Shown here in pieces: positions 10,795 to 35,309 of a DNA stretch of 64,000 nucleotides. Below the pieces are notes generated by a model. The model did not search any database and had not been told where the DNA came from. It saw nothing but the letters and a program-made list of their open reading frames with translations. Within the stretch, counting starts at the first letter, position 1, and the number at the start of each line of letters is the position of its first letter. Both the position numbers and the translations under genes were made by a program. Source of the DNA: Actinomycetota bacterium (lineage in GTDB: Bacteria; Actinomycetota; UBA4738; HRBIN12); NCBI GenBank assembly GCA_040881665.1, contig JBBECT010000004.1:320303-384302 (forward strand), in the 5' to 3' direction.

Positions 10795-11898
10795 GTGAAG
10801 TTCCGGTGCGATCGAGACACGCTCTCCGAGGCGCTGCAGACCGTCCAGCGAGGGGTGTCCTCACGGCCCGGGATCCCGGCGCTGACCGGCGTCCTGCTCG
10901 ATGCGGCCGACGGCGGCACGCTGACGATGACAACGACCGACCTCGAGGTTTCCGCCCGCCTCGCGATCGAGGTCACCGTCGCGGCATCCGGCTCGGCGCT
11001 CGTTCCGGCACGGTTGCTCGCCGACACGGTCAAGAGCCTGTCCGACGCCCCCGTCGAGATCGAGACCGATCAGGCTCAGGCGCAGATCCGTTCCGCGGCG
11101 TTCGAGGGATCGCTGCGGCTGCTTCCCGTCGAGGACTTCCCGACGCTGCAGGAGCCGAGTGGAACGAAGGTCACGTGCGAGGCCGGCGCCTTCGTCGAAG
11201 CCGTCGGGCAGGTGGCGCGCGCGGCGTCACGCGACGAGGCGCGCCCGGTTCTGACCGGTGTGCTGCTGGAGATCTCCCGCGAAGGCGTCACGCTCGTCGC
11301 GACGGATTCGTACCGCCTCGCCGTCCGCGACCTCGTCGCGACCAGCGCCGGCGAGTCGAAAGCGATCGTTCCCGAGCGGGCGATCTCCGAGGCTGGGCGG
11401 GCGGCCGCGACCGACGAGAAGGGCACGGTCGAGCTGCTCCTGGACGACGCGCAGGTATCGTTCAAGGCTGGCGACCTGATGCTCACGTCCCGTCTGATCG
11501 AGGGCGAGTTCCCGAACTATCGCCAGTTGCTCCCCGACACCTACGACAGCCGCCTCGAGGTCTCTCGCCAGCAGCTGATGGAGGCCGTCAAGCGGGTGGG
11601 ACTGCTCGCCCGCGACACGACCCCCGTGCGCATGGAGTTCAACGCGCTCGGCGTCAAGCTGTCGTCGTCCTCGCCCGACGTGGGCCAGGCTGTCGAGGCC
11701 GTCGAGGCCCGGTACGAGGGCGAGGAGATCACCGTCGCCTTCAATCCCCACTACCTGTCCGACGGCCTCGCCGCCGCGACGGGAGAGACGGTGAAGGTCG
11801 AGGTCCGCGACGGCCTCAAACCGGGCATCGTCCGGGGCGACAACGACGCGTTCACCTACCTGGTGATGCCGGTGCGGCTCCCCGCGCCGGTGGCCTGA
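10795..11898 (+). CDS. dnaN: DNA polymerase III beta sliding clamp
   Basis: 367 residues from a GTG with an AGGGGGTGG ribosome site nine bases upstream. Three repeated clamp domains are visible: an N-terminal one (MKFRCDRDTLSEALQTVQRG, with GIPALTGVLLDA), a middle one (ARPVLTGVLLEISREGVTLV, with ATDSYRLAVRDL) and a C-terminal one that ends in VMPVRLP, the usual clamp terminus. The dimer encircles DNA and tethers Pol III. It lies between oriC and recF in the standard order. Confidence 0.97.
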   Translation: MKFRCDRDTLSEALQTVQRGVSSRPGIPALTGVLLDAADGGTLTMTTTDLEVSARLAIEVTVAASGSALVPARLLADTVKSLSDAPVEIETDQAQAQIRSAAFEGSLRLLPVEDFPTLQEPSGTKVTCEAGAFVEAVGQVARAASRDEARPVLTGVLLEISREGVTLVATDSYRLAVRDLVATSAGESKAIVPERAISEAGRAAATDEKGTVELLLDDAQVSFKAGDLMLTSRLIEGEFPNYRQLLPDTYDSRLEVSRQQLMEAVKRVGLLARDTTPVRMEFNALGVKLSSSSPDVGQAVEAVEARYEGEEITVAFNPHYLSDGLAAATGETVKVEVRDGLKPGIVRGDNDAFTYLVMPVRLPAPVA

Positions 11899-24588: not shown

Positions 24589-24628
24589 GGGCTGCGCGAC
24601 CGGCTCCGGGCACGTACCCTCGTTGGCG

Positions 24629-25156
24629 ATGACGGGCTGGTGGATCGTCGCGTTCGTAGCCCAGTGGCTGCTCCTCGTCGTGCTGGCGGTGGTCGTTGTC
24701 GCCCTCGCCCGGCAGGTCGGCACGCTGCACTTGCGCCTCGGCCCCCTCGGCGCGCTAGAGCTCGACGACGAGGGTCCCCCGCTCGGGAAGGCCGTGGATC
24801 TGCTCCACGTCGCGGGGCCCGACGATCGCCCCGTCACCCTCGGAGGACCCGCCGACCGCGGGAAGCTCGCGCTGTTCACCTCCCCGACCTGCCAGATCTG
24901 CCGCCAGGTGGCTCCCGGCGTGCCGGCGGTCGCGACCGCCGGCGGGCTCGATCCGGTCCTGGTGTCCGATCCGGGAGCCGAGCGCGCCCTCGATGTTCCG
25001 GGGACCCCCTATGCTCTGGTGCTGGACCGCCACGGTGTGGTCCGCGCGAAGGGAACGGTGAACAACCTCGAGCAGCTCGAGGGCCTGGTCGACACGGCGG
25101 CGCGACGCGTCGAGGAGGTCGGCCCGGCCGACGGAGCGCACCGGGAGGCGATGTGA
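24629..25156 (+). CDS. MauD-like membrane thioredoxin
   Basis: 175 residues from ATG 24629. One N-terminal membrane helix (WIVAFVAQWLLLVVLAVVVV) is followed by an outside thioredoxin-like domain with the redox pair C88-x-x-C91 in SPTCQICRQV, and then TPYALVLDRHGVVRAKG as the cis-Pro and strand region. This matches MauD, which helps make the six disulfides of the methylamine dehydrogenase small subunit. Its TGA overlaps the start of the Cys-rich exported protein (GTGA), which is the expected client. Confidence 0.82.
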   Translation: MTGWWIVAFVAQWLLLVVLAVVVVALARQVGTLHLRLGPLGALELDDEGPPLGKAVDLLHVAGPDDRPVTLGGPADRGKLALFTSPTCQICRQVAPGVPAVATAGGLDPVLVSDPGAERALDVPGTPYALVLDRHGVVRAKGTVNNLEQLEGLVDTAARRVEEVGPADGAHREAM

Positions 25157-25790: not shown

Positions 25791-26933
25791 ATGGTGGAAA
25801 CCATCGCCCCCGTGGTCCACGGGGGACGCCGCGCCAGGTGGGCCCTGGATGTCGCGCTCCACGTCGTGGGCGCCACGCTCGCCGCCGCGGTGTTCGGAGC
25901 GCTGTTGGGTGGCATCGGCACGCTGCTGGGAGCACCGTTCGGCGCCGCCGGCCTGCTCCTGCTCGCCGCGGTCGCGGTCGTCTACGGCGTTGCCGAGGCC
26001 GCGCGACTGGGCGTGCCGATTCCCCAGGCGCGGCGGCAGGTCCCCGACTGGTGGCGCACGTTCTTCTCGATGCCGGTCTTCTCGTTCCTGTACGGGGCGG
26101 GTCTCGGGGTCGGGTTCCTGACCTACCTGTCGCGAGGAACGCTGATCGCCGTGACCGCCGCGTGCGTCGCGAGCGGGCGGCCGCTGACGGGGCTGGTCTC
26201 GATGGCCCCGTTCGGGTTCGCACGGTCGGCGGTCGTGCTGCTCGCGGCCGGCGCGACGACGCGCGAAGCCGCGGCCGCCCTCGTCGATCGTCTCGCGGAG
26301 GCGTCGCGTTCGGTCTGGTGGCGCATCGCCAACGGCGCCGTCCTGTTCGCCGTCGCGCTCACCGCCGGTCTGACCGCGCTCGACACCGGTGGTGACGGAG
26401 CGGGGCTCGAGCGACTGCTGCCGGCGGCGCTCGCGGCACTCTTCGGCTGGGCTGGCTTCGCGAAGCTGCTCCGCCCACGCGCGTGGCGCCGTTCGCTCAC
26501 CGACCACCGGTTTCCCCGGCGCGTCGCGTCGGTGGCCGGGTTCGGCGTTCCGTTCGCGGAGCTCGCGGTCGCGGCGCTCGCCGTCCTCGGCTACGGCCGC
26601 GCCGCGGGTGTCGCCGCCGCGATCCTCACGGTGGTGTTCTCGGCCGCGGTGCTCCGTGCGCGGGGGTTCGCCGAGGGACAGGTCCCGTGCGGTTGCTTCG
26701 GGGGAGTGCGCTCCCGCGACTGGCGTGTGCTCGTGCTCCGCAACCTCGCCGTGCTCGCTCTCTCGATCGCGACCGCGCTCACCGGGTCCGACCCGAGGAT
26801 CGAGTGGCCGGGAACTCCCTCGGGCTCGGAGGTGCTCCCGGCGCTGTTGGCCGTGGCGGGCGTGCTCGTGGGAGGGTGGGTGCTCGTCACGGCCGCGAAC
26901 GCGTTCCGTGCGGGAAAAAGGAGGCAGGCGTGA
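25791..26933 (+). CDS. Polytopic protein with C-terminal MauE domain
   Basis: 380 residues and many membrane helices. The C-terminal about 150 residues match MauE of the DoxX-like superfamily: FGWAGFAKLLRPRAWRRSL, then FGVPFAELAVAALAVLGYG and GQVPCGCFGGVRSRDWR with the CGCFG cysteine pair. MauE supplies disulfide or quinone-linked electron transfer for MauA folding. The N-terminal about 220 residues form another helical bundle (GRPLTGLVSMAPFGFARSAV) that is not part of classic MauE and may be a fused electron-transfer module. The stop overlaps the next gene (GTGA). Confidence 0.75.
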   Translation: MVETIAPVVHGGRRARWALDVALHVVGATLAAAVFGALLGGIGTLLGAPFGAAGLLLLAAVAVVYGVAEAARLGVPIPQARRQVPDWWRTFFSMPVFSFLYGAGLGVGFLTYLSRGTLIAVTAACVASGRPLTGLVSMAPFGFARSAVVLLAAGATTREAAAALVDRLAEASRSVWWRIANGAVLFAVALTAGLTALDTGGDGAGLERLLPAALAALFGWAGFAKLLRPRAWRRSLTDHRFPRRVASVAGFGVPFAELAVAALAVLGYGRAAGVAAAILTVVFSAAVLRARGFAEGQVPCGCFGGVRSRDWRVLVLRNLAVLALSIATALTGSDPRIEWPGTPSGSEVLPALLAVAGVLVGGWVLVTAANAFRAGKRRQA

Positions 26934-28977: not shown

Positions 28978-30588
28978 CTAAGTCTCCTCGTCTCGTCCGG
29001 CGGCCGCGCTCGGATCCCAGCGGCCGTACGATCCCGAAACCGGATATGTGGCCGTGGAGACCAGATCGTATCCGCGCGGGAACGACCGTTTCGCGACCCG
29101 CGACGATCCCGAAGGAGGGCTCAACGCTGACAGGAGTGCGACAGCGAGAGCGTCGATCTCGGGAAGCGTCTCGATCCCGACCGCGATCCGAAGGAACGAG
29201 CGACGCTCGTTGGCAACCGCGTAGATCCTCGTCGTGTCGAAGCCGAAGCTCGTCCCTGCCACCAGTGGAACTCCACCGTCGCGCGCGGCACACAGGGCCG
29301 CGTCGACGAGCGCGTCGCAATCCGAATCCGCGGTAGCGACCGTCAGGAGGCCGCCGCGGAAGGGGAGCCCGCGACAGACCCGGTGTGAGGGGTGGCGCTC
29401 GAGCGATCCGTGCTGCACGTCGAGTGAGCCTGCGAGGAGGCGAGCGAGGTGCTCGGTATTGCCCCCGATCCGATCGAGTCGGCGCATCAGCATCGTCCGA
29501 TCGGGCGGAGGCAGGACGATCGGCGAGATCGCCGCGACGTTGGCTCCGAGGTGTTCTCGGTACCGGTCCAGCCGCTCGGCGTCCTCATCGACCGCGACGA
29601 TGAGTCCCGCGGTCGTCAGGTCCATGCCGAACTGCGGGTATTTCGTGAGGCTCTCGTGGACGATCAGCCGCACGTGAGCCGCATCGTCCGAGGCGAGCTC
29701 CCACGGGAGCAGGGACGACGACAAGCACGTGTTGTCGACCACGAGGTAGGTTTCGGACTCGACCTCACGCAGGGCCGCGCACGCCTCTGCGAGATCCGGA
29801 ACGATCACGCCCGCCTCGTTACAGAGGGAGTCGAGGAACACCGCCACCGGCCGGTGGCGCGCAACCGCGGTTCCGATCGCCCCCGGGATCGACTCGTCGA
29901 CGTCGATGAGCTGGCTCCCGAGGGCCGAGCGAAGCAGTCCGGCACACTCGTGATAGCTGTGCCGTCCCATGAGGACCGGGCCGCGGAGGTGCCCCTCCAT
30001 GGCCAGGTACGTCATGATCGTGGTGAACGCGGACATGCCGCAGCTCGTCATGATCGCTCGTTTCCCGTGACCAGAGGGTCCCAAGGATGCGACGTAGTCC
30101 CGTTCATACCCAGCGGCATCGTGGTGACGGTCTCGCTTGTAGTCGTCGTGGCGTGCCCTGATCGAGCCCATGTGGCGGCCCGCCGCGGGCGTGCCGGAAT
30201 GTTGCGTCGATGGCGATTGCCAGTCGGTGGAGATCACGGTCGTTGCCGAGAGCCCGACCTCGGTCCGAACGAGGTCAGACATCTCACGCCTGCGTCGTGA
30301 CAGCTCACCCAGCTCACCGATCCCCGCCTCGCGTGCCGTCGATCCGAGGTTTCGGAGCGCTCGGAGCAGACGTCCGTGACGATCGATCGTGCGCTCGAGC
30401 TCGTGCTCGTAGAGCATCCTGGTGCCGGGGAAGAACCCGCCCCGGCTGCCCGCGATGTGGGACCGCAGGCGCTCCAGCCGCGCAAGCCCCGCGCCCACGA
30501 CGAACGCGAGCGATCCGAAGTCTTCGGACAGGTCGGCCCCCGCGCTGCGTCCCAGGCGGTCCGCTTCGCGGGCTGATGTCATCGTCAT
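28978..30588 (-). CDS. Cys/Met-metabolism-type PLP enzyme with N-terminal extension
   Basis: 536 residues. The C-terminal about 400 residues look like the cystathionine synthase/lyase group of fold-type I enzymes: TSCGMSAFTTIMTYLAMEGH binds phosphate, ETYLVVDNTCLSS holds the Asp that contacts the PLP nitrogen, and HESLTKYPQFGMD has the schiff-base lysine K316. The first about 130 residues are not part of the fold seen in that group. It lies divergent to the MurF-like gene across a 75-bp gap that must hold both promoters. Likely reactions are gamma/beta elimination or replacement on an amino acid; the true substrate is unknown. Confidence 0.75.
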   Translation of the reverse strand: MTMTSAREADRLGRSAGADLSEDFGSLAFVVGAGLARLERLRSHIAGSRGGFFPGTRMLYEHELERTIDRHGRLLRALRNLGSTAREAGIGELGELSRRRREMSDLVRTEVGLSATTVISTDWQSPSTQHSGTPAAGRHMGSIRARHDDYKRDRHHDAAGYERDYVASLGPSGHGKRAIMTSCGMSAFTTIMTYLAMEGHLRGPVLMGRHSYHECAGLLRSALGSQLIDVDESIPGAIGTAVARHRPVAVFLDSLCNEAGVIVPDLAEACAALREVESETYLVVDNTCLSSSLLPWELASDDAAHVRLIVHESLTKYPQFGMDLTTAGLIVAVDEDAERLDRYREHLGANVAAISPIVLPPPDRTMLMRRLDRIGGNTEHLARLLAGSLDVQHGSLERHPSHRVCRGLPFRGGLLTVATADSDCDALVDAALCAARDGGVPLVAGTSFGFDTTRIYAVANERRSFLRIAVGIETLPEIDALAVALLSALSPPSGSSRVAKRSFPRGYDLVSTATYPVSGSYGRWDPSAAAGRDEET

Positions 30589-30663
30589 GCCTAGGGGACC
30601 AGTTCGAGGGTCAGTTCGGTTCCCGCTCGGAACCTCATCATTCCTGCACCGGTCTTCCCCCGT

Positions 30664-32016
30664 ATGAGGCGATCGCGTCTTGACGACGTTGCCGCACGCC
30701 TCGGAGGCCGCTTGATCGGGCCTTCAGGGTGGGCGTCGGGAGTCATCACCGACAGCCGCCTGGCCTCCAGGGAGACATTGTTCTTCGCCCTCCGAGGCCA
30801 GAGGTCGGACGGGCACGACCATGCCGCGGAGGCCCTCGGACGAGGGAGCTCCGCCGTGGTCGTCGAGGAGGGGCGGGTGCAGCTCGAACCGAGGATCGAG
30901 GTTCGCGACCCGCTGGCCGCTCTGGCGGGCCTGGCGGCAACCGAGCGGTCCGCCTCCTCGGCCCATGTCGTTGCGATCACGGGGTCGACGGGCAAGACCA
31001 CGACGAAGGATCTTCTGGTCTCGATCCTGTCTCTGGCGGGACCGACGCACGCCAGCCCGGAGTCTTTCAACAACCATGTGGGGGTCCCGACGACACTGCT
31101 CGGGGCGGCCTCCGACCCGGCGTTCTTTGTCTGTGAGATGGGCGCCGGGGCCGAAGGCGAGATCGCGGACTACTGTCGGATAGCGCGCCCGGACTCCGGG
31201 ATCGTGACCAACGTGGGCCAGGCGCACCTCGCAACGTTCGGCTCCGTCGACTCGATCGCTCGGGCGAAACGCGAGGTGGTCGAGGCCCTTGCGGACGACG
31301 GGCTGGCCGTCCTGAATCGCGACGACCCACGCGTGATCGCCTTCTCCCGAGGGCTCAGGTCTCGGATCGTGACGTTCGGACGCTCGCGGGCCGCAGACGT
31401 GCGCGCTACCTGCGTGCGTCTCGGAGCGGACGCAAGGGCGAGGTTCACGTTGGTGACGCGCCAGGGAGCCGTGCCCGTCGTCTTACCCCTGCCTGGTGCG
31501 CACATGGTGCCCAACGCCCTGGCCGCCTCGGCTGCGGCGTTGGGCTTGGGCCTGACCCCAGTGCAGTGCGCGGAGGGATTGAGGGCGGCCAAGACGAGCC
31601 GATGGCGGATGCAGCGGTCGGTGACGCCCTCCGGTGTTCGGCTCCTGAACGACGCCTACAACTCGAGCCCTCCTTCGGCCCGCGCCGCTCTGACAACGGC
31701 CCGTCTCATGGCGGGGAGCGGTCGGTTGATCGCGGTGATCGGAGAGATGGCGCAGCTCGGACCCGAGTCCGCGAGGGAGCACCGGTCCCTCGGCCGGTTC
31801 GCGTCCGAACTCCCTGTGGACCGCCTCATCACCGTGGGCGCATCCGCGAGAGCGATCTGGAGCGTTGCCACCGACCGTGGGATCGCCGCCTCGCACTCCG
31901 AGGACCTGGACGGCGTCGACGCAACCCTCGAGGCGATGTGCCGCCCCGGGGATGTCGTTGTTCTCAAAGCGTCCCGCTCGGCCGGCTTCGAGCGGATCGC
32001 GGCGGCGCTGTCATGA
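30664..32016 (+). CDS. MurF-like Mur ligase
   Basis: 450 residues with the three Mur domains. The N-terminal domain has VITDSRLASRETLFFALRG. The central ATPase has GSTGKTTTKDLLVSIL (P-loop near 107-114) and the MurF-specific ESFNNHVGVPTTLL and VCEMGAGAEGEIADYCRIA. The C-terminal domain has RLLNDAYNSSPPSARAAL and VIGEMAQLGPES. MurF adds D-Ala-D-Ala to the UDP-muramyl tripeptide. This gene is outside any division-wall cluster and is fused by ATGA overlap to an amine oxidase and SbnA-like synthase, so a dedicated amide ligase in a biosynthetic pathway is at least as likely. No ribosome site precedes the ATG, suggesting a leaderless message. Confidence 0.85.
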   Translation: MRRSRLDDVAARLGGRLIGPSGWASGVITDSRLASRETLFFALRGQRSDGHDHAAEALGRGSSAVVVEEGRVQLEPRIEVRDPLAALAGLAATERSASSAHVVAITGSTGKTTTKDLLVSILSLAGPTHASPESFNNHVGVPTTLLGAASDPAFFVCEMGAGAEGEIADYCRIARPDSGIVTNVGQAHLATFGSVDSIARAKREVVEALADDGLAVLNRDDPRVIAFSRGLRSRIVTFGRSRAADVRATCVRLGADARARFTLVTRQGAVPVVLPLPGAHMVPNALAASAAALGLGLTPVQCAEGLRAAKTSRWRMQRSVTPSGVRLLNDAYNSSPPSARAALTTARLMAGSGRLIAVIGEMAQLGPESAREHRSLGRFASELPVDRLITVGASARAIWSVATDRGIAASHSEDLDGVDATLEAMCRPGDVVVLKASRSAGFERIAAALS

Positions 32017-33092
32017 GTTCCGAGGCGGTCGTGGTCGGGGCCGGCATCTGTGGCGCCTCCGCGGCCTACCATCTCGCGGCCCAGGGGGTTCAGACGCTCC
32101 TCGTCGAGCGATCGGGTATCGGGTCGGGCGCGACCGGGGTGGCCCCGGGACTGCTGTGCGGGGGAAGCGATCCTCCGTCGCAGGCCCCCGGACTCGACGT
32201 CCTCAAGTCCTGGGCCCAGGCGCACTACGAGGAGACCCTGATCCCGATCCGCGACGAGCTCCCGAACAGCGCCCTCAGGTGGACGGGGGCCCTGCGCATA
32301 CGCCGGGTCGCCGATCCCCCCGATCCTCCGACCGAACCGGCCCCCGGATCGATCGAGATCGTGAGCGCTCGCGACATCTCGCAGATCGATCCTTCGTTGC
32401 ACGCACCGCTGGGGGGGAGCTGGTTCCCCGAGGACGGGAACGCCGATGCCCCGGCGATCGCGAGGGCCTTCGTGTCGGCAGGCGTCGCGACCGGGAAGCT
32501 CGCGCTGGATCATGCCGACGGCATCGAGGTCGTCGCCCCGGGGGGCGCGGTCACGGGGTTGCGTACGACGTCGGGCACGATCGACTGCTCGACGCTCGTG
32601 GTGGCGACCGGAAGCGACGAGCGAGGGCTCCTCGCACGGCTCGGCCCGGAGCTCGCACCGGTGCGGGGGCAACTGCTGGTCGACCGTGGGACGCCACACC
32701 CCCGGGTCGTGTGCCGCTACGGCCGCACCTACGCGGTGGCGCGAGGAGGCTGCACACTGATCGGTGCAACCGAGGAGCGTCTGGGTTTCGACACCACGCC
32801 GGATCACCGGAAGCTTCGGGTGCTCGCCGGTGAGTGGGGGGAGCTGATGGGACGGGGGCTCGTCGATCCCGAGGTGAGAACGGGCTTCCGGTCGGCGACC
32901 TCGGATGGGGCCCCGTTGATCGGTCGGCACCCCGGCGTCCGAGGCCTCTACATCGCCTCGGGGCTGTATCGGGATGGCGTCCTCCTCGGGCCCGCCGCGG
33001 GCGCGGCCATCACCCGCGTGGTGACTGCGGGAGTGGCGCTTGCTCCATGGGATCGGTTCGATCCCGCTCGCCTGATCGAAGGTGCCGCATGA
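32013..33092 (+). CDS. FAD-dependent amino acid oxidase / glycine-oxidase-like
   Basis: 359 residues. The N-terminal dinucleotide fold reads VVVGAGICGASAAYHLAAQG with the ribose-binding glutamate in LLVERSG. The DAO-type body has VAPVRGQLLVDRG (seen as LAPVRGQLL), GGCTLIGATEE and the C-terminal flavin-contact SATSDGAPLIGRHPGVRGLY followed by [17 protein letters not shown]. The family oxidises glycine, D-amino acids, sarcosine or N-substituted amino acids. ATGA overlaps join it to the MurF-like gene before and the SbnA-like gene after, so all three are translated together. Confidence 0.85.
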   Translation: MSSEAVVVGAGICGASAAYHLAAQGVQTLLVERSGIGSGATGVAPGLLCGGSDPPSQAPGLDVLKSWAQAHYEETLIPIRDELPNSALRWTGALRIRRVADPPDPPTEPAPGSIEIVSARDISQIDPSLHAPLGGSWFPEDGNADAPAIARAFVSAGVATGKLALDHADGIEVVAPGGAVTGLRTTSGTIDCSTLVVATGSDERGLLARLGPELAPVRGQLLVDRGTPHPRVVCRYGRTYAVARGGCTLIGATEERLGFDTTPDHRKLRVLAGEWGELMGRGLVDPEVRTGFRSATSDGAPLIGRHPGVRGLYIASGLYRDGVLLGPAAGAAITRVVTAGVALAPWDRFDPARLIEGAA

Positions 33093-34147
33093 GCTTGGTC
33101 CTGCGCGAAGCAGCCGCGGTCGACTCCGTCTTGGACGTGGTCGGGCACACGCCCCTCGTGCGCCTGAGGCGCCTGCCCGATCCTGCGGGCGCCGACGTGT
33201 TCGTGAAGCTGGAAGGCTTCAACCCCAGCGGCAGCGTCAAGGACCGCTCCGCTCTCGGGATGATCGATGCCGCTGAGGCGGCCGGGTCGCTGGCCCCCGG
33301 CATGACCGTGATCGAGTCGTCATCGGGCAACCTCGGCGTCGCGATCGCGCAGATCGGTGCGGTTCGTGGCTACCGAGTGATCATCGTTGCGGACCGCAAG
33401 GCCTCACCCGCGCAGGTTGCGCTCATGACCGCCTACGGGGCGGAGGTCGATCTGGTCCAGGGTGATCCCCCCGAGGGTCTGCAGCAGGCGCGTTGGCACC
33501 GGGTACGCGAGCTCGCGGCGATCCACGCGCCCGCCTTCATCCCCGATCAGTACGACAACCCCGACAATCCTGCGGCCCACGCTCGGACCACGGGCGCCGA
33601 GCTGCTCGCCGCGCTCGGTGATCGGTTCTCGACGGTGGTCGCGTCGGTGAGCACCGGGGGACACCTCAGCGGGATCGCGGAATGCGTGCGCCCGATGGGA
33701 GTGCGGATCGTCGCGGTGGATATCGCGGGGTCCGCACTGTTCGGGTCCGAGAGCCATCCGTATCTCACGAACGGCATGGGCCTTTCGTGGACGCCCGGGA
33801 ACCTCGCCGACGACCTCATCGACACGGTGGTCGTCGCCGACGACATCACCGCCTTCGAGACCGCGCGAGCGCTCGCACTTCACGAAGGGATCCTCGCCGG
33901 GCCGTCGACGGGGGCGGCCGTGGCTGCCGCGATCGGAGTGGCTTCCACCGCTGCTCCGGAGGACTCCGTCGTGGCGATCGCACCCGACAGGGGTGATCGC
34001 TACGTGGATTCGCTCTTGCAGCCCGACTGGTGCGAGCGGCACGGTATACGGGCGTGGCCGAGCGTTCGGCAAGCTCGGGAGAACCCGAGGCTGGCGTCCC
34101 TCGGCCGCAGCGTGCGGCGGACGCTCGTCGGCCGGGATACGGGATGA
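33089..34147 (+). CDS. SbnA-like PLP synthase (cysteine synthase superfamily)
   Basis: 352 residues, fold-type II. The PLP lysine is K51 in NPSGSVKDRSA; the phosphate/amide loop is ESSSGNLGVAIAQI, and SVSTGGHLSG holds the second glycine loop. It matches SbnA beyond ordinary CysK: VDIAGSALFG, EGILAGPSTGAAVAA and APDRGDRYVDSLLQPDWCER all have close counterparts in SbnA. SbnA condenses O-phosphoserine with glutamate to N-(2-amino-2-carboxyethyl)glutamate, the precursor of 2,3-diaminopropionate. Its usual partner SbnB is absent here; the FAD oxidase next door may replace it. Recognition is from memory of the SbnA sequence. Confidence 0.8.
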   Translation: MSLVLREAAAVDSVLDVVGHTPLVRLRRLPDPAGADVFVKLEGFNPSGSVKDRSALGMIDAAEAAGSLAPGMTVIESSSGNLGVAIAQIGAVRGYRVIIVADRKASPAQVALMTAYGAEVDLVQGDPPEGLQQARWHRVRELAAIHAPAFIPDQYDNPDNPAAHARTTGAELLAALGDRFSTVVASVSTGGHLSGIAECVRPMGVRIVAVDIAGSALFGSESHPYLTNGMGLSWTPGNLADDLIDTVVVADDITAFETARALALHEGILAGPSTGAAVAAAIGVASTAAPEDSVVAIAPDRGDRYVDSLLQPDWCERHGIRAWPSVRQARENPRLASLGRSVRRTLVGRDTG

Positions 34148-34154
34148 GTCGCGC

Positions 34155-35309
34155 GTGACGGGGCGGGTGTCCACCGCCGCGCCTGCCGACCTGGTGCTCA
34201 ACCCAAGGTCGAGGCCGAGCGATATCCCGGCACCCGGTCGGCAAGCGTTCGAGTGGCACCGGTCCCTTCCGGGATACCGTCCGACGCCGCTACGATCCCT
34301 CCCCTCCCTCGCGGAGTCGCTCGGTCTGGAGCGACTCCTGGTGAAGGACGAGTCGAGCCGTTTCGACCTGCCCTCCTTCAAGGCCCTCGGAGCCTCGTGG
34401 ACGACCCGACAGCTCCTGCGCGAGCATCGGGGGACCCGGATCGATGCGCTCGTCGCGGCATCCGACGGCAATCACGGCCATGCTGTCGCCGCCGTTGCGC
34501 GCGAGCGAGGCCTCGATGCGGTGATCTACCTTCCTCCCACGGCGGTCCCGGCGCGGGTCGACGCGATCAGGAAGACCGGGGCACGCGTGATCACCGTCCC
34601 CGGCACCTATGACGATGCCGTGAGCGCGGCGGCCGCGCACGCAGCACGGTTCGGCTCGGCCCTCCTCGTCACCGACACGTCCGTGAGTGCCGCCGACCCG
34701 AGCGCGAGGGCAACGATCGACGGCTACGCCACGATCTTCTGGGAGATCGACGATCAGCTCGCGCGTGCCGGTCTGGAGCAGCCCGATCTGGTGATGCTGC
34801 AGGTTGGGGTGGGTGGCCTTGCCGCCGCGGGAGTTCGGCACTTCCGTGCGGAACCGACTCCGCAGGTGATGGTCGGTGTCGAGCCGCTCCATGCGGCCCC
34901 CGCGTTCGAGTCGCTCCGCAGCGGAGGGCCGGTCCGAGTCGACCTTCCCACGAGTGCGGGACGCATGGTCGGGCTCCAGGCCGGCATGGTTTCCGCGGCC
35001 GCCTGGCCGTCCCTTCGTGACGGACTCGACGCTGCCGTCGCGATCTCAGATGTGTGGTGTTCGCAGGCGATCGAGGGGCTCGCCGATGTCGGGATCGCCA
35101 CCCTGCCGACGGGTGCGGCCGGTCTCGCCGGGCTGCTGGCGTTGGCAGCCATGGACCGCAGGCCGAAGGGTCTCGTGTGGCGAGGCTCGGCGCTCGTCAT
35201 CGTGACCGAAGGGGATGATGGGAGCGGGTTGGCTTGGGGTCCGCCGTCGAGGCGGCGGTTTCAATGGGACACGACATGGACTCAACAGAGGACGTTGCGG
35301 CGCACCTGA
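34155..35309 (+). CDS. Diaminopropionate ammonia-lyase-like PLP enzyme
   Basis: 384 residues from GTG 34155, eight bases after the SbnA-like stop. Fold-type II enzyme with PLP lysine K76 in LPSFKALGASW and the loop ASDGNHGHAVAAVARE. The order FEWHRSLPGYRPTPLRSLPS, then SFKxLG and DGNHG, and LMLQVGVGGLAAAGVRHF is that of 2,3-diaminopropionate ammonia-lyase. The tail TATLPTGAAGLAGLLAL region and VTEGDDGSG complete the phosphate site. It may cleave diaminopropionate to pyruvate and ammonia, or may use this chemistry in another step. The gene ends the rightward cluster. Confidence 0.75.
   Translation: MTGRVSTAAPADLVLNPRSRPSDIPAPGRQAFEWHRSLPGYRPTPLRSLPSLAESLGLERLLVKDESSRFDLPSFKALGASWTTRQLLREHRGTRIDALVAASDGNHGHAVAAVARERGLDAVIYLPPTAVPARVDAIRKTGARVITVPGTYDDAVSAAAAHAARFGSALLVTDTSVSAADPSARATIDGYATIFWEIDDQLARAGLEQPDLVMLQVGVGGLAAAGVRHFRAEPTPQVMVGVEPLHAAPAFESLRSGGPVRVDLPTSAGRMVGLQAGMVSAAAWPSLRDGLDAAVAISDVWCSQAIEGLADVGIATLPTGAAGLAGLLALAAMDRRPKGLVWRGSALVIVTEGDDGSGLAWGPPSRRRFQWDTTWTQQRTLRRT

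Follow-up and report, generated by a model that had tools for sequence, protein, structure and literature searches.

An SbnA-type enzyme and a second MurF in one actinobacterial gene cluster: a possible diaminopropionate route linked to UDP-MurNAc-peptide

Siderophores and peptide antibiotics are known to draw on diaminopropionate routes, and peptidoglycan is built by Mur ligases. A five-gene locus of an uncultivated actinobacterium places an SbnA-like synthase and a MurF-like ligase in the same unit, raising the question of what these enzymes could do together. The locus lies in the window, which is the whole 64,000-nucleotide stretch of DNA analysed here (G000:C4:320303-384302), on a 966-kb contig of a 2.46-Mb assembly that is 95.9% complete and 2.1% contaminated. 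We tentatively propose, at somewhat short of an even chance, that the cluster makes L-2,3-diaminopropionate (Dap) and that a duplicated Mur ligase, with a UDP-MurNAc-peptide as its substrate, takes part in its use.

The five genes named in the original prediction were all found intact at their given places (Table 1). The gene for the PLP enzyme is divergent from four rightward genes, and the layout suggests that the intergenic region carries the promoters of both units. As had been described, ATGA overlaps join the first three rightward genes, and translational coupling is predicted at both junctions. The fourth rightward gene had been placed eight bases later; the actual gap between the stop codon of the SbnA-like gene and its GTG start is 7 bases. 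SbnB is indeed missing from the window cluster, which also contains no exporter or regulator and no Ddl-, transporter- or transpeptidase-like gene. No composition break was seen around the cluster, and genes read from their ORFs as dnaA, dnaN, recF, gyrB and gyrA lie approximately 10-20 kb from it. PADLOC gave no matches to anti-phage defence, and P0001 had no match in the plasmids of PLSDB. Elsewhere in the window, a 187-aa ORF at 24025-24588 matches no Pfam family and consists of repeat units (E-G-x-V-R-A-x-x-G-L) of approximately 20 residues each. A thioredoxin-like ORF (24623-25156) and a run of secreted-looking ORFs precede the gene for a MauE-like membrane protein (methylamine utilisation) at 25791-26933. 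These are possibly maturation genes of the amine dehydrogenase type.

Table 1. Features of the five-gene cluster, in positions of the window
Feature	Position	Strand	Size or basis
P0001, PLP enzyme	28978..30588	-	536 aa
Intergenic region between the divergent units, presumed to hold both promoters	30589..30663	.	75 bp; gene layout
P0002, MurF-like	30664..32016	+	450 aa
ATGA overlap of the murF-like and FAD enzyme genes, predicted translational coupling	32013..32016	+	sequence
P0003, FAD enzyme	32013..33092	+	359 aa
ATGA overlap of the FAD enzyme and sbnA-like genes, predicted translational coupling	33089..33092	+	sequence
P0004, SbnA-like	33089..34147	+	352 aa
P0005, DAL-like	34155..35309	+	384 aa, GTG start

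The family scores of the five proteins lie far beyond chance expectation. Among all models, TIGR03945 matched P0004 best, at 285 bits, but this score is below the cut-off of 349.95, and the protein is thus named SbnA-type rather than SbnA. Its cysKM score of 260 is near its SbnA score. In SbnA, Arg132, Tyr152 and Ser185 select O-phosphoserine (PMC12414870), and the equivalents of all three are kept in P0004. At these sites CysK has Ala, Phe and Gly, and CBS has Tyr, Tyr and Gly; even among the SbnA references Ser185 is not universal, and several carry Gly instead. In a tree with SbnAs (several with an adjacent SbnB), the PDB SbnA, CysK and CBS as references, P0004 formed the deepest branch on the SbnA side, outside the cysteine synthases and CBS, with a support of 100/99 for the split. 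The original prediction had named a position inside the ordinary cysteine synthases as a reason to abandon it; the tree and the selecting residues together rule out that P0004 is such an enzyme. P0004 is thus classified, from its sequence, as an SbnA-type O-phosphoserine beta-replacement enzyme. The genome encodes nine PALP proteins, including separate proteins whose sequences read as CBS, CysM-like and CysK-like. SbnA/SbnB makes Dap for staphyloferrin B in S. aureus (PMC12414870), and NjxA/NjxB makes Dap for poly-Dap in S. albulus (PMC4668381). The cluster resembles SbnA/SbnB systems in its SbnA-type enzyme with the three selecting residues, and its Thermoleophilia relatives described below also have SbnB. 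However, the window cluster differs in having a flavoenzyme in place of SbnB and a coupled Mur ligase, and in having no NRPS or siderophore synthetase.

The MurF-like gene is not the sole murF of the genome, an outcome that would have refuted the original prediction, as a canonical second murF is present in the dcw cluster beside murE (C5:162187); P0002 is a paralog. P0002 is full-length, scores 376 bits with TIGR01143 (cut-off, 289), and keeps the P-loop, the NDAYN motif and TDSR...DGH, which we take to be the MurF UDP-site motif. The retention of the UDP-site motif and the P-loop makes a UDP-MurNAc-peptide the likely substrate of P0002. Unlike MurF, the UDP-MurNAc-tripeptide:D-Ala-D-Ala ligase, P0002 is encoded outside dcw and departs from it at several otherwise conserved residues: G162 replaces R, H138 replaces E, and NDAYN is followed by SS instead of AN. 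In the tree, it grouped with dcw MurFs from its own order with a support of 96/93. The genome makes ordinary diaminopimelate, with dapF and a dcw MurE that has DNPR, the diaminopimelate motif of MurE (PMC12681378). The product of the cluster would therefore be extra, and the cluster is ruled out as the source of the only wall diamino acid of the genome.

P0003 matched the Pfam family PF01266 (DAO) with 150 bits, a family whose members split C-N bonds in amino acids. The solved structures nearest to it are glycine oxidases, and P0003 aligns with glycine oxidase at the conserved Arg in the GLRP motif and at the RNG (RxG) loop. P0003 nevertheless scored 132 bits with TIGR02352 (ThiO), under the cut-off of 250.8, and is in this respect unlike glycine oxidase ThiO. 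A search of the phylum sample, covering 336 other genomes, found no relatives of P0003 at E<=1e-40. Glyphosate, which is a secondary amine, is reported to undergo C-N bond cleavage by glycine oxidase (PMC3818420), and cleavage of ACEGA by P0003 would for this reason be chemically reasonable. P0003 may stand in for SbnB in the window.

P0005 scored 207 bits with PRK08206, the model of diaminopropionate ammonia-lyase (DAL), under the cut-off of 276, whereas ordinary actinobacterial DALs scored 301-341. Like DAL, P0005 keeps the Lys and the equivalents of Asp120 and Asp189 of the Escherichia coli enzyme in an alignment to 4d9g, both aspartates being presumably catalytic, and it is 46-48% identical to the best actinobacterial DALs. 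Its sequence thus places P0005 as a diverged derivative of the actinobacterial DAL family.

P0001 matched Pfam PF01053 (Cys_Met_Meta_PP) with 56 bits and is weakly similar to named Cys/Met enzymes, with a best NCBIfam score of 37 bits against cut-offs of approximately 480-690; no named equivalog cut-off was reached. The AlphaFold model of P0001 has a pLDDT of 84, and its best PDB matches are cystathionine gamma-synthases and gamma-lyases with approximately 18-24% identity. P0001 shares with that family the fold, the Lys of SLTK, the Asp of VVDNT and the Y-x-R motif, and Lys316, Asp285, Tyr150 and Arg152 are invariant across 16 relatives. It differs from the family in its low identity and in an extra N-terminal three-helix domain of approximately 120 residues predicted by the model. 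P0001 belongs to a distinct, rare family of CGS-like fold-type-I PLP enzymes with members in both Actinomycetota and CPR bacteria. It is the rarest marker of the cluster, found in 2 of the 27 genomes of the window's class; relatives occur in 5/397 genomes of the phylum sample and in 4/399 genomes of the class of the Thermoleophilia genome G129. A scan of 85,000 species with an alignment as the query detected 14 loci, and the single-sequence query found nothing. In CPR bacteria (Uhrbacteria and Adlerbacteria), a P0001 relative is divergent from a gene for an AstE/AspA-family deacylase in a two-gene unit (L020:3532-6026, L023:4085-6596, L025:1081-3150 and L030:7178-9488), and the best NCBIfam match of the one deacylase tested, that of L020, is DoeB (N-acetyl-diaminobutyrate deacetylase). 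In three other Actinomycetota, according to the reading of the ORFs, a lone P0001 relative adjoins a glucose-6-phosphate-dehydrogenase-like gene or ends a run of pentose-phosphate genes (L015:416-3443, L016:8098-11118 and L026:974-9038).

Conservation of the five genes as a set had been suggested as a check on the cluster. The exact set was found in this one assembly only, across the 27 class genomes, the 397 phylum-sample genomes and the 85,000-species scan, but the PLP enzyme, MurF and SbnA occur together with SbnB in two Thermoleophilia MAGs, G614 (L022, Co-bin10) and G129 (L014). Both MAGs have one common order, with a divergent MurE', the P0001 homolog, MurF', SbnA and SbnB, and in both MurE' and MurF' are extra copies besides those of dcw. 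This recurrence with SbnB supports the coherence of the gene set and the diaminopropionate reading, both put forward in the original prediction. The SbnAs of G129 and G614 scored 347 and 335 with TIGR03945, both just under 349.95, and the best model for the SbnBs is TIGR03944, with 230-233 bits under a cut-off of 327. MurE' of G614 shares only 40% identity with the dcw MurE of the same genome; MurE' keeps DNPR, and MurF' of G614 has lost a Glu that is otherwise invariant (position 204 of P0002). At position 162 of P0002, Gly is present in the cluster MurFs of both lineages and Arg in 16/17 dcw MurFs, which is a hint, no more, of a changed peptide site. The Mur copies of G129 (L014:8266-9552 and 11148-11528) have in-frame deletions of approximately 75 and 317 residues with the ATP-binding part gone, and MurE' is also frameshifted; the P0001 homolog, SbnA and SbnB are still open. 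In genome G719, a remnant (L038:874-2094) joins, in frame, the N-terminal domain from a P0001 relative to the C-terminal two thirds of a MurF, and SbnA is gone. The Mur deletions of G129 and G719 could be assembly faults. Both Thermoleophilia also have, within a few kb but on different sides of the cluster, an MpaA-like murein tripeptide amidase gene (L014:4923-7169 and L022:15177-16397), and that of L022 also has a MepA-like part.

The trees disfavour a single ancestral cluster. The cluster MurFs of G614 and G719 branched with the Thermoleophilia-side dcw MurFs with a support of 100/100, and a single clade of the three cluster MurFs (window, G614 and G719) was rejected by the AU test with p 2.5e-5. 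Single clades of the three cluster PLP enzymes (p 0.0035) and of the three cluster SbnAs (p 0.018) were also rejected. Gene order alone had defined the groups for these tests, in advance of any tree. Read plainly, the rejections indicate that the association of PLP enzyme, MurF and SbnA arose more than once, or was rebuilt by replacement of parts. Such repeated assembly or replacement would be hard to explain without a joint function, and suggests that the enzymes of the set work together.

The main alternative, which we consider unlikely, is an antimetabolite cluster, in which the PLP enzymes and the flavoenzyme make an amino-acid wall poison, derived from Dap or otherwise, and the spare MurF, together with MurE in Thermoleophilia, is insensitive and protects the producer. 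The branching of each cluster MurF with the housekeeping MurF of its own lineage is as expected of a duplicated target, and the rare, patchy and repeatedly decayed distribution also fits. However, the low identity between MurE' and dcw MurE in G614 argues against a protective duplicate, as does G129, where both Mur copies are broken and the genes for the P0001 homolog, SbnA and SbnB remain open. Furthermore, the cluster has no exporter or regulator, and MurF comes first in the coupled unit.

A role in sulfur amino-acid metabolism appears improbable. P0004 would then act as an O-phosphoserine sulfhydrylase or as a cystathionine-type synthase, P0001 would serve in transsulfuration, and MurF and the flavoenzyme would be accidental neighbours; the cystathionine gamma-synthase/lyase fold of P0001 and the cysKM score of P0004, not far below its SbnA score, are consistent with this. 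Nevertheless, Tyr152, Ser185 and Arg132 together form the SbnA pattern, which neither CysK nor CBS shows. CBS, CysM-like and CysK-like genes are, moreover, already present elsewhere in the genome, and the gene set recurs with SbnB and MurF. Turnover of Dap or other diamino acids, in which the DAL-like enzyme and the flavoenzyme degrade amino acids and the MurF copy either has no part in this or serves muropeptide salvage, is given slightly less weight still. It accounts for both DAL catalytic aspartates being kept in P0005 and for the DoeB-matching AstE/AspA-family deacylase beside the stand-alone P0001 relatives of CPR bacteria, but SbnA-type enzymes are biosynthetic, and the PLP enzyme, MurF and SbnA recur with SbnB and without DAL.

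Considering these results, with all functions assigned by homology, we propose the following scenario for Dap synthesis coupled to a duplicated Mur ligase. In the best reading, P0004 would turn O-phosphoserine and Glu into ACEGA. P0003, doing the work of the NAD-dependent SbnB, would then oxidise ACEGA at its secondary amine, yielding Dap and 2-oxoglutarate, a step for which the chances are about evenly balanced. P0002 might add Dap or a Dap-containing unit to UDP-MurNAc-peptide, or complete a precursor carrying one, and the outcome would be either a modified cell-wall precursor or a product of the nucleotide-peptide kind; this step is possible but falls below an even chance. As guesses, P0001 might make or modify an amino-acid building block, and P0005 might clear excess Dap or have a changed activity. 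The computed support for the scenario comprises the gene set, the family placements, the catalytic residues kept, the MurF paralogy and the recurrence with separate histories. The ATGA couplings also favour it. Against it, P0004 and P0005 score below curated cut-offs, a DAL-like enzyme is odd in a Dap-making operon, and P0001 relatives stand alone in CPR bacteria and beside other genes in other Actinomycetota. The restriction of the exact set to one assembly, the lost Glu in MurF' of G614, the truncated Mur copies of G129 and G719 and the lack of a Ddl-, transporter- or transpeptidase-like gene in the cluster likewise count against it.

In the open-access literature, no match was found to a MurF/SbnA cluster or to wall diaminopropionate. 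More speculatively, Mur ligases may have been recruited at least two times into a Dap pathway whose end product is an alternative UDP-MurNAc-peptide, either a cell-wall precursor containing Dap or a natural product of the nucleotide-peptide type. One lineage would have exchanged SbnB for a flavoenzyme, and enzymes of a new CGS-like PLP family would be needed as partners; we regard this wider picture as possible, though doubtful. If true, it would represent new cell-wall chemistry, or a new way to make peptide products on a UDP-MurNAc carrier, and a second, flavin-based solution to the SbnB step. As a similar set appears to have been assembled separately in two lineages, a shared function would be directly testable with a few purified enzymes.
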